A DNA stretch of 64,000 bases, taken from assembly GCF_008629675.1 (NCBI RefSeq), contig NZ_VWOX01000016.1, positions 1-64,000 of the forward strand, given 5' to 3'. Positions within the stretch are counted from its first letter, which is position 1, and each line of letters begins with the position of its first letter. A model generated the notes under the pieces. It saw only the letters and a list, made by a program, of their open reading frames with translations. It made no database searches and had not been told where the DNA came from. Positions 1-47,125 of this stretch are shown here, piece after piece. Position numbers and translations under genes: made by a program. Origin of the DNA: Roseiconus nitratireducens (lineage in GTDB: Bacteria > Planctomycetota > Planctomycetia > Pirellulales > Pirellulaceae).

Positions 1-189
1 AAGAAAAGCACGTCTCTTCCCGGCTCGGAAAGCTGTACGACCTCCTAGCGGGAGGGTGAACCAGAGAACGCCTGACATGGATCGCTCGATGGACTTCTGC
101 GGAACTGACCCACAAATGCAGAGCCGCTGAACCACGAGCTGAACAACACCACGTTGACGTCACCACGGTCGCCGGAGCCATCCCCGACC
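1..189. repeat. Partial copy of a dispersed repeat, otherwise non-coding
   Basis: The first 60 bases carry a stretch with GCTGTACGACCTCCTAGCGG and then GAGGGTGAA. This resembles the sequence that follows the repeat at 27178-27322 (GCTGCACAACCTGCTAGCGG, AAGGGTGAA) and the run CTTCCCGGCTCGGAAAG is close to one at 19168-19182. It looks like a degenerate end of the family B element described below. The rest of this stretch shows no credible gene. Confidence 0.4.
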
Positions 190-41264: not shown

Positions 41265-41566
41265 TCCGGCGGTCCGCCCGCAGGTGATCGGCAGCGGATG
41301 GGGCGAGACCACGTGTCCTGCTTGGCGGCCTCCCGAGTGCGACGAAATGCCCGGCCGGACAAAGTCATCTTCCGGTCCCTCGGAATAACCCAAATGGCCC
41401 TTCCTGCCCCGCTAGGATTTCCTTGATTCGGTTTGGGCTGACGTTTCCGGATGCCGAAAGTTAAACTTGGACGAAAACTGGCGCGGTTGGGCTCTCAGGA
41501 ATGGTTCCCCAGGGCGGTTCCGCCGGCGCGTGAGGCGGTTTCTTCGAATTGTTCCAACGGACTTCC
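41265..41566. other. Intergenic stretch, nothing recognised
   Basis: About 300 bases after the TPR gene. No family A, B or C repeat, terminator hairpin or credible frame is apparent. Confidence 0.4.
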
Positions 41567-41959
41567 ATGGCTCGATTTGGCATTTTTTCCGGGTTGTTGC
41601 TCTGCATCGACACGACCGTGGCGCTGTTCGGGTCGTTGGACAAGGCACCACTGTTGTTCATCCCGATGATGCTGGGCATCCCGATCCTGTTTTTCGGCGT
41701 CGTGGCACTGAACCCGCACCGACGCAAGCAGGCCCTGGCGACCGCGGCACTTCTGGGGGGGCTTGGGTGTCTGATCGGGTTCGGCCAGTTGATTCATCTG
41801 TTTTCGCTGTGGCGCAACGTCGGAGCGGTGAACCTGCACTACACGCGGATCGTCCTGTTGATGGTCGGCGTTTGCATCGCGTACCTGGCGACATACGCCT
41901 GGAATTGGTCGGCGCGGCGTAAATTCCGCATGATGTTCCTCAACCGCAGCGGCGGTTAA
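41567..41959 (+). CDS. Small four-helix membrane protein, unknown
   Basis: A 130-residue protein with four hydrophobic segments (FGIFSGLLLCIDTTVALFGS, LLFIPMMLGIPILFFGVVAL, ALATAALLGGLGCLIGFGQL, IVLLMVGVCIAYLATYAW) and a basic C-terminus (WSARRKFRMMFLNRSGG). It lacks recognisable functional residues. The ATG at 41567 starts just before the first helix. Its position upstream of cimA may be incidental, since cimA has its own promoter. Resembles uncharacterised planctomycete membrane proteins. Confidence 0.7.
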   Translation: MARFGIFSGLLLCIDTTVALFGSLDKAPLLFIPMMLGIPILFFGVVALNPHRRKQALATAALLGGLGCLIGFGQLIHLFSLWRNVGAVNLHYTRIVLLMVGVCIAYLATYAWNWSARRKFRMMFLNRSGG

Positions 41960-42080
41960 CGGCAAGGATCGTTTCGCTCTGCGAGCCGCGAAATCGAAGC
42001 CACTTTCGCGTCCCCAACAGCGACCATTCGAGATTTGGCTGGGCGCATCCCTTCGCCGCAGTGCCAACCAGCGACGGCGA

Positions 42081-42109
42081 TTGACGGACGATCCTGCAGG
42101 TCGTATCCT
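42081..42109 (+). promoter_or_regulatory. Candidate sigma-70 promoter of the cimA leader
   Basis: TTGACG (42081-42086) and TATCCT (42104-42109) have the optimal 17-bp spacing. Transcription would start near 42116, about 26 nt before the leader-peptide ATG and about 235 nt before cimA. It is the best consensus match in the cimA upstream region. Confidence 0.6.
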
Positions 42110-42141
42110 CTGGCCTGAATTGCCAGCCCCCCAAACCTTTC

Positions 42142-42207
42142 ATGAACACTGTGCCCTTCCGCCGAGTCATTATCAGCCGCGTCACCGGCATCATTCGCCG
42201 GTCATGA
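42142..42207 (+). CDS. Putative leader peptide of a cimA attenuator
   Basis: A 21-codon ORF encoding MNTVPFRRVIISRVTGII and then RRS. Four of 21 residues are Ile, in two adjacent pairs (codons ATT ATC and ATC ATT), and three are Val. This is the composition of leader peptides that measure charged Ile/Val-tRNA in ribosome-mediated attenuation. It lies between a good promoter and an intrinsic terminator directly ahead of citramalate synthase. No clear SD precedes the ATG, which is common in this genome. The second Ile pair (42190-42195) lies in the loop of a hairpin, and the TGA at 42205-42207 abuts the candidate antiterminator strand. Confidence 0.7.
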   Translation: MNTVPFRRVIISRVTGIIRRS

Positions 42208-42215
42208 CGCGGGGG
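42180..42215 (+). promoter_or_regulatory. Leader hairpin and antiterminator strand of the cimA attenuator
   Basis: CGTCACCGGC (42180-42189) pairs with GCCGGT (42197-42202) and, across a 3-nt bulge, GACG (42206-42209); the loop is ATCATTC with the Ile-Ile codons. CGCGGGGG at 42208-42215, just past the leader stop, is complementary over 8 nt (one G-U) to CCCCCGTG at 42302-42309, the 5' arm of the terminator. A ribosome stalled at the Ile codons would leave this strand free to block the terminator; one that reaches the stop codon would cover it. Confidence 0.6.
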
Positions 42216-42300
42216 ACTGAACCACCTGTCGGCCGGTCGTTGACCGTGGCCGCTGGTCGGTTCCGGCACAGTCTGCAACAGCTCTGACTGACACAGCTTG

Positions 42301-42336
42301 ACCCCCGTGGCTTTGAAGAAGCTCCGGGGGTTTTTT
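42301..42336 (+). terminator. Intrinsic terminator / attenuator before cimA
   Basis: ACCCCCG (42301-42307) pairs with CGGGGGT (42325-42331), with an inner GCTT-TGAAG-AAGC hairpin, followed by six T (42331-42336). The T run ends 15 nt before the cimA ATG at 42352. Position directly ahead of the coding sequence and about 340 bp after the preceding gene argues for an attenuator rather than a terminator of upstream transcription. A hairpin at 42230-42252 (CGGCCGGTC-GTT-GACC-GT-GGCCG) lies between it and the leader ORF. Confidence 0.75.
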
Positions 42337-42351
42337 CGTATTGAAACTGCC

Positions 42352-43947
42352 ATGAACGTAAAACCAATTCAGATCTACGACACGACCCTTCGCGACGGTT
42401 CCCAAGGCGAAGGAGTCAGCTTTTCACTCAACGACAAGCTGCAAATCGCGAAGCGACTGGCGGAGACCGGGATCGACTTCATCGAGGGCGGTTATCCGTT
42501 GAGCAATGAAAAGGACGTGGCTTTTTTCGAGCAGGTCCGCGAAATGGATCTCGGCGACGCCAAGGTGTGCGCCTTCGGAATGACGCGGCGACGCGGGCTG
42601 AAGCCGGAGGACGATCCGGGGATGCAGGCGCTGGTCCAGGCGGCGACACCCGTGATCACGGTCGTTGGCAAAACCTGGGATTACCACGCGACGGAGGTCT
42701 TGCGTGTCTCGTTGGAGGAGAACCTGGACATGATCGGCGAAAGCGTCGAATTCCTGGCGGGCCATGCCGAGGTGATCTACGACGCCGAGCATTTCTTTGA
42801 CGGCTACCGTGCCAACCCGGAATACGCCTTGAAAACGTTGCGGGCCGCGGCCGTTGCCGGCGCGACGGTGATGGCATTGTGCGACACCAACGGCGGATCG
42901 CTGCCCGAACAGATCGCCGAGGTGACTGCGGTTGCCATCGATTCGTTGAAAGACTTTCCGCAGGTGACATTCGGGATCCACTGTCACAACGATAGTGAAC
43001 TTGCCGTGGCCAATTCGCTGGCCGCCGTCGACGCGGGGGCGACTCAGGTGCAGGGAACGATCAACGGGATCGGAGAACGTTGCGGCAATGTCGATTTGAT
43101 TTCGGTCATGGCCAACCTGGCCCTGAAGAAAAAGGGCTATTCCGTACTGGGTGGTCGGGGCCTGCAGTCTCTGACGGAACTGAGTCGCTTTGTTTACGAA
43201 ACGGCCAACCTGCAATGGCGTGGCGGCCAGGCGTTCGTCGGGCAAAGCGCCTTCGCGCACAAGGGCGGGATGCACGTTCACGCGATCAACAAAGCCGCGT
43301 CCACGTACGAACACATCGACCCTTCCTTGGTCGGCAACGAGCGCAGGATTCTGGTCAGCGAGTTGTCCGGTCGCAGCAACATCGTTGCCGTCGCCACGCG
43401 GCATAGCATCGAAGACGACCGCGAGTTGCAGGACAAGATCCTGGCGGAGGTCGTGCGGTTGGAAAACCAGGGCTTCCAATTCGAGAACGCCGGCGGTTCT
43501 TTTGATCTGCTGGTCAAGCGAATCGTCGGTTCCTTCTCGCCGCACTTCAGTCCGATCAAATACCGCGTCGTTGCCGGGGAAACCTCGGCCGACGAGAAAG
43601 ATGTTTACGCGGAGGCGATTCTGAAGATCCGTGTCGGTGACCAGGATTGTTTCAACGCCGCCGAAGGACACGGGCCGGTCAACGCGCTCGACACCGCGCT
43701 GCGGGAAACGTTGTTGCCGTTTTATCCCCAGCTGCGCGACATGTACCTGATCGACTACAAGGTGCGCGTCGTCGACAACGGAGCCGGGACGGCCGCCGGA
43801 ACCCGGGTGAACATCGAAAGCGGTGACCACAAGGAAACCTGGGGCACGATCGGTGTGAGTGACAACATCATCGAGGCCAGTTTTCAAGCGTTGATCGATT
43901 CGGTCGAGTACAAATTGCACAAGGACAACGTGACGCCAGCGACTTAG
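42352..43947 (+). CDS. cimA: (R)-citramalate synthase
   Basis: Condenses pyruvate with acetyl-CoA to give citramalate, the first step of the threonine-independent route to isoleucine. The 531-residue protein has the DRE-TIM metal-binding motif IYDTTLRDGSQGEGVSFS (residues about 8-25), the metal-ligand segment GIHCHNDSELAVANSLAAV, NGIGERCGNVDL, and FAHKGGMHVHAINK, plus a C-terminal regulatory LeuA-allosteric dimer domain (VRVVDNGAGTAAGTRVNI). It is assigned CimA over 2-isopropylmalate synthase because of the IEGGYPLSNEKD substrate loop. Length fits CimA of this branch (about 520-540). It is preceded by the attenuator described above and followed 88 bp later by valS. Confidence 0.93.
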   Translation: MNVKPIQIYDTTLRDGSQGEGVSFSLNDKLQIAKRLAETGIDFIEGGYPLSNEKDVAFFEQVREMDLGDAKVCAFGMTRRRGLKPEDDPGMQALVQAATPVITVVGKTWDYHATEVLRVSLEENLDMIGESVEFLAGHAEVIYDAEHFFDGYRANPEYALKTLRAAAVAGATVMALCDTNGGSLPEQIAEVTAVAIDSLKDFPQVTFGIHCHNDSELAVANSLAAVDAGATQVQGTINGIGERCGNVDLISVMANLALKKKGYSVLGGRGLQSLTELSRFVYETANLQWRGGQAFVGQSAFAHKGGMHVHAINKAASTYEHIDPSLVGNERRILVSELSGRSNIVAVATRHSIEDDRELQDKILAEVVRLENQGFQFENAGGSFDLLVKRIVGSFSPHFSPIKYRVVAGETSADEKDVYAEAILKIRVGDQDCFNAAEGHGPVNALDTALRETLLPFYPQLRDMYLIDYKVRVVDNGAGTAAGTRVNIESGDHKETWGTIGVSDNIIEASFQALIDSVEYKLHKDNVTPAT

Positions 43948-44035: not shown

Positions 44036-47000
44036 ATGATTCCCAACCGATTCGACCATACGACGGCCGCCGGGCCGATTGCGGCAAAGTGGGATGACGC
44101 CGGGTGCAGCCACGCCGAAGTTTCGCCGGACAAAGAACCGTACACGATCGTGATCCCGCCGCCGAATGTGACCGGCGCGTTGCACCTCGGCCACGGGTTG
44201 AACAACACCTTGCAGGACATCTTGATCCGGGCGAAACGCATGCAAGGGTTTGAAGCGTTGTGGTTGCCCGGGACGGACCACGCCGGAATTGCGACACAAG
44301 CGGTGGTCGAGCGCCGCTTGAAGGAGCAGGAGAACCTGACGCGTCACGACATCGGACGTGAAGCATTGGTCCAGCGGATCTGGTCTTGGAAGGACCAGTA
44401 CGAAAAACGCATCATCGGACAACTCAAGCGGATGGGGTGCAGCTGCGACTGGCGACGGCTGCGATTCACGCTGGACGAACGCTGCGCCGCAGCGGTCCGC
44501 GCCACCTTCTTTGATCTGTTCCAAAAAGGCTTGATCTATCGCGGCAAGCGGCTGGTCAATTGGGACACCTTCCTGCAGACGGCCGTCAGCAACGACGAAG
44601 TGGAGAACGTGACGCGGAAAGGTCACTTCTATCATTTCCGCTATCCCGTGATCGATCCTAAGCCGGGTGAACCCTCGCACGTGGAAATCGCGACCACGCG
44701 TCCGGAAACGATGCTCGGCGACACCGCAGTTGCCGTCCATCCGGACCCTTCCCAGGCCTTCGCCAAGATCGAGCGAGAGTTGCGAGGCAAGATCGCCCAG
44801 GCGAGTGCCAAGGAAAAGTCTGAACTGGAGCAGCAGTTGGAGGCGATTCAGCGACGGCAGGATGCGATGCTGGCGGATCTGGAGATGTTGCGCGAGATGG
44901 CGGCCGATGGACGCAAGCTGATGCTGCCGCTGGTCGAGCGCGAAATCCCGCTGGTGGCGGACGAGTGGGCCAAGCCTGAGCTGGGGTCGGGCTGCGTGAA
45001 AATTACACCGGCCCACGACCCGAACGATTACGAGGTCGGGATGCGGCGTTCGTTGCCGATGATCAACATCCTGAACCCCGACGGCACGATCAACTCCGCC
45101 GCGCCCGCCTACGAGGGGCTGACCATTGCCCAGGCCAGAAAGCAGGTGGTTGCCGACTTGGAAGCGGCCGGTCTGCTGGGCGACATCGAGGATCGTGACA
45201 TCGAAATGCCGTTATCCGACCGCAGCAAGACGGCGATCGAACCTTACCTGGCGGATCAATGGTTTGTCGCAATGGACCAGCTGGCCCAGTCCGCGATGGA
45301 CGCGGTGTCTTCCGGACAGGTCGACATCATTCCTGAACGGTACGAAAAGGGATACCTGGACTGGTTGGGGGAAAAACGTGACTGGCCCGTCAGCCGCCAA
45401 TTGTGGTGGGGCCACCGAATTCCGATCTGGTCGGCGACCTACGACCGGGAGAGTGAGGCGAAGCAGGTGGTCGCCGCGGCGAGTGAGATGGGTGCTTCCG
45501 GGGAAGTCGACGCCAAGGTGCAGGCGGACGAGGAGACCGGCCAATTCAGCGTGTTCGTCTGTCTTCGGCAAGAAGATTCGCCGCTGGAACCCAAGGTTGA
45601 AGCGTTGGGCTTGGAACGCGATCCCGACGTGCTCGATACCTGGTTCTCCTCGGCCCTCTGGCCCCACAGCACGTTGGGATGGCCGGAACAGACCGAGGAA
45701 CTGGCGTACTTCTATCCGACTTCGACCCTGTGCACGTCGCGCGACATCATCACCCTGTGGGTTGCTCGAATGGTGCTGATGGGGTTGAACAACCTGGGCG
45801 AAGTCCCGTTCCATGACGTCTACATCCACCCCACGATCCTGGACGGAAACGGGGAGCGGATGAGCAAGAGCAAAGGCAACGGGGTGGATCCGATCGACGT
45901 GATCGACAAGTTCGGTCCTGATGCGCTTCGCTTCGGGCTGGCACGTTTGGCCACCGAGACGCAAGACGTTCGGCTGCCGGTGCAATACGAGTGCCCGCAC
46001 TGCGAAAAGCTGGTGGATCAAACCAAGAAGAATCGCACGGCTCCGGTCGTCGATTGTCCCTCATGCAAGGAACGGTTTTCGACGCAGTGGGCGGAAACGG
46101 AAGGGCATCGTGCGTTCCCTAAAGCCGCGGTGGTCAGCGAGAAGTTTGAAACCAGCCGCAACTTCGTCAACAAACTTTGGAATGCCGCCCGATTCGTGCT
46201 GATGAATCTGGACGACTACCAGCCGCGACCGATCGATGTCGAAACCCTGCCGTTGGAGGACCGTTGGTTGCTGAGCCGATTGGCGACGGTGACCCGGCAG
46301 GTGACCGAGGGGATCGATCAGTTCAAGTTTTCCGAGAACGCAAGAATCCTCTACGACTTTGCCTGGGACGAGTTCTGCAGCTTTTACGTGGAAATCGCCA
46401 AGCCTCGCTTGGCCGACGATTCGCTGCGGGCCGCAACGCAAAACGTGATGGCGCACGGACTGGATACACTGCTGCGGTTGCTGCACCCGATCATGCCGTT
46501 CGTGACCGAATCGATCTGGGAGTACCTGGGCCAGTTGGCTCCCGAGCGTGGCTTGCAGCCCGCCAAGGTGTCCGAATTCGCGATGACGGCAAGTTGGCCC
46601 ACCAGTCACGCGGAGCATTTTGACGAAACGATCGAGCGACAGTTTTCGCAGTTCCAAGAAGTCATCGGCGCGGTGCGCAAGATTCGAGCCAGCCAGAACA
46701 TTGCTCCGCGTGAGACGGTTCCGGTTGCGATTCGTTGCGACGCGGCAAGCCAGGCGTTGCTGGATCCCATGAAGTCGTATTTCGGCTCATTGGCCGGGGC
46801 CGAGGTCGTTGCGCTCGGGCCGGACGCAAAGCCGTTTGCCACCGATGCCCCGCTGGCCTTGCCGTCGATCGACATGGAAGTTCACGTGGACTTGGAGAAG
46901 TTCATCGACGTGGAAGCCGAACTGACGCGTCTGGAAAAGCTGTTGGGGCAATTGGTCAAACAGATTCAAGGCAAGGAATCGAAGTTGTCCAACGAGAACT

Positions 47001-47125
47001 TTGTTTCTCGGGCTCCAACCGACGTGGTTGAAAAGGAACGCGAATCGTTAAGCGATTTGGTGGTTCAACGCGAATCGGTTCAGGGCGACATCGAGCGTCT
47101 GAAGGAGAAGGCGTCATCAAACTGA
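44036..47125 (+). CDS. valS: Valyl-tRNA synthetase with zinc-ribbon insertion
   Basis: Charges tRNA-Val with valine. The 1029-residue class I synthetase has the HIGH motif at HLGHG (residues 50-54), RMSKSKGNGVDP (about 608-619), the editing (CP1) domain with TRPETMLGDTAVAVHP and a C-terminal coiled-coil arm. An internal coiled coil (AKIERELRGKIAQASAKEKS, 239-300) inserted near the editing domain and a zinc ribbon at Cys653-xx-Cys656 and Cys674-xx-Cys677 are extra to E. coli ValRS (951 residues). Follows cimA. The 3' end overlaps the start of a Minf_1886-type gene. Confidence 0.95.
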   Translation: MIPNRFDHTTAAGPIAAKWDDAGCSHAEVSPDKEPYTIVIPPPNVTGALHLGHGLNNTLQDILIRAKRMQGFEALWLPGTDHAGIATQAVVERRLKEQENLTRHDIGREALVQRIWSWKDQYEKRIIGQLKRMGCSCDWRRLRFTLDERCAAAVRATFFDLFQKGLIYRGKRLVNWDTFLQTAVSNDEVENVTRKGHFYHFRYPVIDPKPGEPSHVEIATTRPETMLGDTAVAVHPDPSQAFAKIERELRGKIAQASAKEKSELEQQLEAIQRRQDAMLADLEMLREMAADGRKLMLPLVEREIPLVADEWAKPELGSGCVKITPAHDPNDYEVGMRRSLPMINILNPDGTINSAAPAYEGLTIAQARKQVVADLEAAGLLGDIEDRDIEMPLSDRSKTAIEPYLADQWFVAMDQLAQSAMDAVSSGQVDIIPERYEKGYLDWLGEKRDWPVSRQLWWGHRIPIWSATYDRESEAKQVVAAASEMGASGEVDAKVQADEETGQFSVFVCLRQEDSPLEPKVEALGLERDPDVLDTWFSSALWPHSTLGWPEQTEELAYFYPTSTLCTSRDIITLWVARMVLMGLNNLGEVPFHDVYIHPTILDGNGERMSKSKGNGVDPIDVIDKFGPDALRFGLARLATETQDVRLPVQYECPHCEKLVDQTKKNRTAPVVDCPSCKERFSTQWAETEGHRAFPKAAVVSEKFETSRNFVNKLWNAARFVLMNLDDYQPRPIDVETLPLEDRWLLSRLATVTRQVTEGIDQFKFSENARILYDFAWDEFCSFYVEIAKPRLADDSLRAATQNVMAHGLDTLLRLLHPIMPFVTESIWEYLGQLAPERGLQPAKVSEFAMTASWPTSHAEHFDETIERQFSQFQEVIGAVRKIRASQNIAPRETVPVAIRCDAASQALLDPMKSYFGSLAGAEVVALGPDAKPFATDAPLALPSIDMEVHVDLEKFIDVEAELTRLEKLLGQLVKQIQGKESKLSNENFVSRAPTDVVEKERESLSDLVVQRESVQGDIERLKEKASSN

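Follow-up and report, generated by a model that had tools for sequence, protein, structure and literature searches.

Candidate isoleucine attenuators in front of planctomycete citramalate synthase genes and their leucine counterparts at leuA

The window, the whole 64,000-nucleotide stretch of Roseiconus nitratireducens DNA that was analysed, contained a cimA gene preceded by a compact leader region (Table 1). The cimA product was assigned as citramalate synthase by the TIGR00977 equivalog model, with a score of 665 bits against a cut-off of 450 (E = 5.2e-200). Its ATG was located 144 nt from the leader stop codon and 15 nt past the T run of the terminator, the latter spacing being that given in an earlier reading made from the sequence alone (the sequence-only reading). 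The downstream valS gene would possibly be co-transcribed with cimA. A 136-aa ORF lay 5' of the promoter (positions 41549–41959) and had no NCBIfam match; a similar reading was seen by eye upstream of cimA in one genome of the same genus (G010).

Table 1. Features of the cimA leader region and neighbouring genes in the window
Feature	Positions	Strand	Basis
Sigma70-like promoter, TTGACG-17-TATCCT	42081–42109	+	Promoter-like motif scan
Leader ORF, 21 codons, MNTVPFRRVIISRVTGIIRRS	42142–42207	+	Translation; corresponding leaders in relatives
First Ile-Ile pair, ATT ATC, just 5' of the 5' arm of the protector stem	42169–42174	+	Alignment of relatives
Second Ile-Ile pair, ATC ATT, forming the hairpin loop (ATCATTC)	42190–42195	+	Translation and folding
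Protector hairpin, CCGCGTC/GACGCGG with inner ACCGGC/GCCGGT	42177–42212	+	Folding; pairing in relatives
Antiterminator arm, CGCGGGGG, immediately 3' of the leader stop codon	42208–42215	+	Duplex energies and folding
Intrinsic terminator, T run 42331–42336	42300–42336	+	Folding; corresponding terminators in relatives
cimA, citramalate synthase, proposed regulated gene	42352–43947	+	TIGR00977
valS, 88 nt 3' of cimA	44036–47125	+	NF004349 and TIGR00422

The sequence-only reading had proposed a promoter, a leader ORF, a hairpin, an antiterminator arm and a terminator, and these were recovered with one correction. The promoter was found with the proposed hexamers and spacing, and it was the single promoter-like motif in the surrounding 1.5 kb, where 0.4 was expected from shuffles. 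The leader ORF contained the two Ile-Ile pairs and three Val residues described, and no Shine-Dalgarno-like sequence was evident before its ATG. The second Ile-Ile pair formed the hairpin loop as proposed; the hairpin itself had been drawn too small (42180–42209) and extended three nucleotides further on each side. The region 42175–42225 folded with a z score of -3.75, and none of 200 shuffles gave an equal fold. The claimed complementarity of the arm was also present, CGCGGGGG pairing over 8 nt, with one G.U pair, with CCCCCGTG at 42302–42309 in the 5' arm of the terminator, so that this arm had an alternative partner in 42208–42215. The terminator, placed by the sequence-only reading at 42301–42336, was found one nucleotide longer, and the region 42290–42342 had a z score of -2.95. 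A simple terminator scan of 41500–43000 called no site against 2.0 expected in shuffles, presumably because its rule was one unbroken stem with a loop of 3–8 nt. The pairing between CGCGGGGG and CCCCCGTG was present in the fold of 42200–42312, so that the antiterminator is predicted to form before the 3' arm of the terminator exists. Furthermore, the protector hairpin and the antiterminator arm shared positions 42208–42212 and are therefore mutually exclusive, as the attenuation mechanism requires.

The cimA gene was present in all 14 genomes of the same genus, and 12 of them kept the leader ORF, the hairpin, the arm after the stop codon and the terminator. In G010 the terminator alone was found upstream of cimA. 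In G012 (L009) the middle of the leader was lost and GTCATT directly abutted the terminator; a leader broken off in this way should leave cimA terminated without relief. The N-terminal part of the leader was variable, and the segment V-I-I-x-R-V-x-G was mostly kept, with V-I-T in place of V-I-I in G011 and L-I-I in G013. The arm was CGCGGGGG, with CGTGGGGG in G001, and the stop codon was one codon earlier in G003, G011 and G001. In the wider Stieleria-like clade, the stop codon was TGA or TAA at an unchanged position. The leaders of several relatives would begin at GTG or TTG. The start of one contig (L019, from G201) resembled a sequencing-adapter remnant, containing GTGTATAAGAGACAG, which we take to be a sequencing-adapter motif, fused into the cimA leader; the apparent leader peptide of G201 is thus an artefact.

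The twelve pairs of the hairpin were aligned in 25 rows, leaving out near-copies (G008, G009 and G062), G011 and G199; G197 and G198, in which this hairpin was missing, were also omitted, which favours the pair counts, and the rows of G003 and G001 were cut slightly off register. Among the 23 distinct sequences, 97.4% of 274 cells were paired, compared with 22–50% when the 3' arm was slid. The covariation score was 0.200 against 0.150 in shuffles, and 12 cells were changed on both sides against 4.3, both values lying above all 500 shuffles. Two of the five covariation measures were not above the shuffles, namely the number of pairs with changes in both partners (51/500) and that of further pair types (86/500). 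Most of the signal came from one pair, which was UA in 12 sequences and CG in 10, and relatedness inflates such scores.

The survey was extended to 204 planctomycete cimA upstream regions, comprising 91 from the family (of 184 matching genomes), 39 from planctomycete contigs (of 80 contigs, with 38 serving as controls and 3 near-copies dropped), 56 from an even draw across the phylum (of 58 matches, including L243 with almost no upstream sequence), and 18 loci from 19 searched genomes of the genus of Gemmata sp. IIL30. These included duplicate genomes, at least L067/L318, L061/L335, L037/G210 and L054/G321, and look-alikes were dropped for the non-redundant count. The detector required a terminator and an ORF of limited length ending 10–130 nt upstream of it, and ignored complementarity. 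In the first set of 130 upstream regions, a terminator was detected in 100, and 98 were usable. An ORF with Ile-Ile was found in 74 of these 98, compared with 8.2 expected from dinucleotide shuffles, and Val-Val in 30 compared with 9.2; small excesses were seen for Tyr, Met, Lys, Thr and Cys. In all 204 regions, a usable terminator was present in 131 (78 non-redundant), and in the other 73 the terminator was undetected or was preceded by too little sequence. Ile-Ile occurred in 60 of the 78 non-redundant regions against 6.3 expected, about nine times the expectation, and Val-Val in 25 against 7.4. Lesser excesses in the same 78 were found for Thr (21 vs 10.1), Met (9 vs 3.4), Tyr (6 vs 1.4), Leu (22 vs 14.6), Ala (21 vs 13.6) and Gly (17 vs 11.5), and the remaining amino acids were near or below expectation.

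By a looser Ile criterion, a leader was present at 117 of the 204 loci (family, 62/91; contigs, 24/39; phylum draw, 15/56; Gemmata genus, 16/18), a count that includes one probably false leader, G322_L227. All nine genomes of the phylum draw that belonged to the same family, order or class carried a leader (G042, G394, G262, G285, G304, G321, G337, G366 and G381). Further out, five leaders were plausible (G311, G342, G293, G313 and G345), that of G322 looked false, and the remaining loci of the draw had no leader; most of its deep members belonged to the 73 regions lacking a usable terminator. Extreme Ile leaders in the draw included MNIQNIIISIIINIGGD and MTNTLIIIGRIII. The element thus persisted well beyond the genus, and the proposal that a short Ile-rich ORF with paired stems would be conserved in relatives was upheld. 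A promoter of the form TTGACN-16..18-xAxxxT lay upstream of the leader stop codon at 52 of the 117 loci, compared with 0.4 expected in mononucleotide shuffles. No terminator was detected before cimA in several contigs with the titles Isosphaeraceae, Singulisphaera (GP187) and Aquisphaera (L053, L063, L064 and L070), nor in 10 of 11 loci of genus g51 of the same family (L120, L121, L126, L128, L130–L134 and L136), a pattern that would fit loss of the element in that genus. Among 38 cimA homologues from outside the planctomycetes (the titles named another phylum, except L101, which named none; L099 had less than 200 nt upstream), no leader was found, 37 having no detected terminator and one no Ile-Ile ORF; with its preference for GC-rich stems, the detector could have overlooked terminators in AT-rich controls. 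The best reading of this sequence survey is an attenuator that would be widespread in the class, lost in some groups, and present also in a few deeper lineages.

The position of the arm was examined at the 117 leader-bearing loci by sliding an 11-nt window against the 5' arm of the terminator. The mean duplex energy was -10.1 kcal/mol at the leader stop codon and -10.3 kcal/mol 3 nt further, compared with about -3 kcal/mol from -60 to -36 and -3.7 kcal/mol at +12. This minimum anchored on the stop codon indicates that the arm begins there, including at loci whose sequences otherwise have nothing in common, in agreement with the idea that a ribosome completing the leader would cover the antiterminator. 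The best duplex at offsets -3 to +6 reached -8 kcal/mol or lower in a fraction of 0.77 of the family loci (0.05 at control offsets of -60 to -51), 0.88 of the contigs (0.38), 0.80 of the phylum draw (0.20) and 1.0 of the Gemmata loci (0.44); GC-rich groups such as Gemmata also paired often at the control offsets. In many compact forms about 30–40 nt separated the stop codon from the terminator, and the stop codon may itself belong to the arm.

Leader RNAs were also folded with a ribosome footprint covering the A-site codon plus the next 12 nt, a figure given in PMC4833913; the rest was folded up to the terminator loop. In these folds, which represent equilibria of truncated RNA and not kinetics, the mean sequestration of the terminator 5' arm was 0.69 when the ribosome stood on the Ile codons, 0.36 when it stood at the stop codon and 0.56 without a ribosome. 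From stop codon to Ile codons, sequestration rose by more than 0.1 at 100 of the 117 loci, was flat at 16 and fell at one, which is the direction predicted if stalling at Ile codons favours antitermination. In the window the corresponding values were 0.80, 0.57 and 0.36; the ribosome at the stop codon still left the arm taken to 0.57, which counts against attenuation.

Control positions of attenuators elsewhere typically carry poorly used codons. The leader Ile codons were ATT 365 times (68%), ATC 160 times and ATA 9 times. The Ile codons of cimA itself were ATC 211, ATT 53 and ATA 4 in ten named genes, and ATC 26 and ATT 4 in the window.

The leader search covered a chosen set of genes, cimA, leuA, ilvB, trpE and hisG. 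The leuA gene, a homologue of cimA, was represented by 39 loci (37 over the family cut-off and 2 below), of which 3 short ones were dropped, 8 had no terminator, 2 had too little sequence before it and 26 were tested. All 26 contained an ORF with Leu-Leu, compared with 8.0 expected, and one contained Ile-Ile, compared with 1.6. The duplex minimum at leuA was -8.6 at -6 (27 loci). In the genome of the window, the leuA leader (L002, G000:C53:217829) was MMISLLSLLRLLLSPHGREMRVCTHR, ending 31 nt before the terminator, and four of its seven Leu residues were encoded by CTA. Across the leuA leaders, CTA accounted for 51 of 189 Leu codons, against 21 of 980 in the leuA genes. That cimA carries an Ile leader and leuA a Leu leader argues more strongly than any other finding for the leaders being read as codons.

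The other genes gave little of this kind. For ilvB, 30 loci were brought in and 17 scanned (12 of those over the family cut-off); a terminator-like site was found in 3 of the 17, with no clear leader. One ilvB locus from beyond the class (L176) had an ORF reading MTSAWRIIILLILVHFD... that stopped 22 nt short of a terminator-like site and may be a leader for branched-chain amino acids. Among 30 trpE loci, 2 short ones were dropped, 27 had no terminator, and the one with a terminator had no Trp leader. For hisG, 4 of 30 loci were short and dropped, 21 had no terminator and 3 had one too far upstream; of the two tested, one (L364, from G092) had a His-rich leader, MTLNHTKSGHHHSHAHHPRV, 26 nt before the terminator; no second such leader appeared among the hisG loci.

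The features of an attenuator were thus found together at cimA: a leader ORF rich in end-product codons, a terminator before the gene, an antiterminator that excludes the terminator, and a stop codon placed so as to mask the arm. A protector (1:2) hairpin was present in the window and the Stieleria-like clade; in the compact forms no conserved counterpart was apparent. The anatomy, the conservation, the amino-acid specificity of the leaders, the position of the arm relative to their stop codon and the direction of the folds all support this assignment, and the cimA leader is very probably a ribosome-mediated transcription attenuator sensing isoleucine supply, perhaps valine too. The classical attenuation proposed by the sequence-only reading is therefore supported, with a wider reach than was then supposed. 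From these features we infer ribosome stalling, termination and a response to isoleucine. In the proposed mechanism, a ribosome on the leader ORF would trail RNA polymerase. When charged Ile-tRNA is scarce, it would stall at the Ile codons and block the protector hairpin, so that CGCGGGGG would be free to pair with the 5' arm of the terminator and transcription would read through into cimA. When isoleucine is plentiful, the ribosome would reach the stop codon with its footprint over CGCGGGGG, the terminator would form, and a transcript of about 220 nt would result. In the absence of translation, the protector hairpin would likewise leave the terminator free. Valine may be sensed as well, as suggested by the Val-Val excess and the Val-rich Gemmata leaders.

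Three other explanations were weighed. The leader might act on translation or Rho, by re-initiation or exposure of a Rho site, rather than through the intrinsic terminator, and such re-initiation downstream of leader genes has been put forward for bacteria, Planctomycetes among them (PMC4833913); however, the 144 nt between the leader stop codon and the cimA start contain the terminator, and the arm at the stop codon is complementary to that terminator, which makes this reading very improbable. The hairpin might instead be an aptamer for a metabolite or a tRNA, as in a riboswitch or T-box, with the ORF incidental and its translation irrelevant. The strong sequence conservation of 42177–42212 in the Stieleria-like clade would fit such an aptamer, but other lineages combine an Ile-rich ORF and a terminator with an arm at the leader stop without evident common sequence, and in G198 and G197 this hairpin is missing while an Ile-rich leader is kept (MIASDLIISIAPVIGTTIGH in G198). 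In addition, no Rfam 15 family matched the window at gathering score, none of the five sub-threshold matches at E<=5 was a riboswitch or T-box, and the leuA twin replaces Ile by Leu; an aptamer is accordingly a highly unlikely explanation. A plain terminator of an upstream transcript with a chance ORF, cimA being driven from elsewhere, would suit the genomes whose terminator has no leader in front of it (G010, G012, G204 and G186), but is hardly credible given the ninefold Ile-Ile excess, the stop-anchored complementarity, the non-preferred codons, and the rarity of terminators before hisG (5/26) and trpE (1/28 loci scanned).

The attenuator reading has a consequence for Gemmata, since such an element works only with a ribosome on the leader while RNA polymerase is close, and coupling of transcription and translation is thus needed. 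In the Gemmata genus, the leader ORF ended 29–36 nt before the terminator at all 18 cimA loci, and the sequence after the stop codon looked complementary to the terminator arm by eye in 18 of 18 (computed for 16). The leader peptides were Val/Ile mixtures, for example ending in ...VIGVVVVITTG; 16 of 18 passed the Ile criterion and 11 had Ile-Ile. The leuA gene of Gemmata sp. IIL30 was preceded by a reading beginning MTVLPLLLDIRLLG, followed by an inverted repeat and a weak T run; the detector did not call it, and on our reading by eye it would be a Leu leader. Gottshall is said to have reported in 2014 that G. obscuriglobus separates transcription from translation. Reports of such segregation in G. 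obscuriglobus and doubts about the underlying cell plan are cited in PMC6212462, PMC5394234 and PMC6554331, and PMC13323073 sorts phyla according to whether their transcription is predicted to be runaway or coupled. We consider it likely that attenuation at cimA by isoleucine and at leuA by leucine is old and widespread in Planctomycetota, and that its upkeep in Gemmata speaks for coupling at these genes and against spatial segregation. If it works, the Gemmata attenuator bears on this dispute and makes coupling testable.

Proteobacteria and Actinobacteria are the groups in which leader-peptide attenuation is best known, and PMC4833913 gives a similar account. Among the matches listed in the open-licence literature, seen as titles and the starts of abstracts, no leader-peptide attenuator was recognised for planctomycetes or for cimA, and the accessible portion of PMC2965389 made no mention of planctomycetes. 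The kind of mechanism is known and classical, and the phylum and the target appear undescribed in the open-licence literature. The main interest lies in the reach of the element and its consequence for Gemmata. If widespread, the pair of Ile and Leu attenuators would provide the phylum with a known route of amino-acid sensing and with two natural reporters.

T-box leaders respond to whether a specific tRNA is charged, and they too control a terminator. The cimA element differs in using a translated leader, and the window had no T-box match at gathering score or at E<=5. The enterobacterial ilvGMEDA, leu, trp and his operons are controlled by leader-peptide attenuators. The planctomycete element resembles them in its short ORF rich in end-product codons, the alternative 1:2, 2:3 and 3:4 pairings, the stop codon beside region 2 and the poorly used codons at control positions. 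It differs in phylum and in its gene, cimA of the citramalate route to isoleucine, and sequence homology is not claimed; outside the Stieleria-like clade, moreover, the arm often lies about 30–40 nt before the terminator and no conserved 1:2 stem was seen. In Actinobacteria, candidate leader peptides rich in Ile, Val and Leu occur before ilvB and leuA, with terminators before ilvB, according to the available text of PMC1262725, which also describes upstream codon substitutions without effect at ilvB of S. coelicolor and does not mention cimA; unlike the planctomycete gene, actinobacterial leuA carries a LEU pseudoknot element. The leucine-rich attenuator peptide of Staphylococcus aureus, as summarised for PMC5794164, belongs to another phylum and acts beside CodY, and it is likewise a Leu leader controlling branched-chain synthesis.
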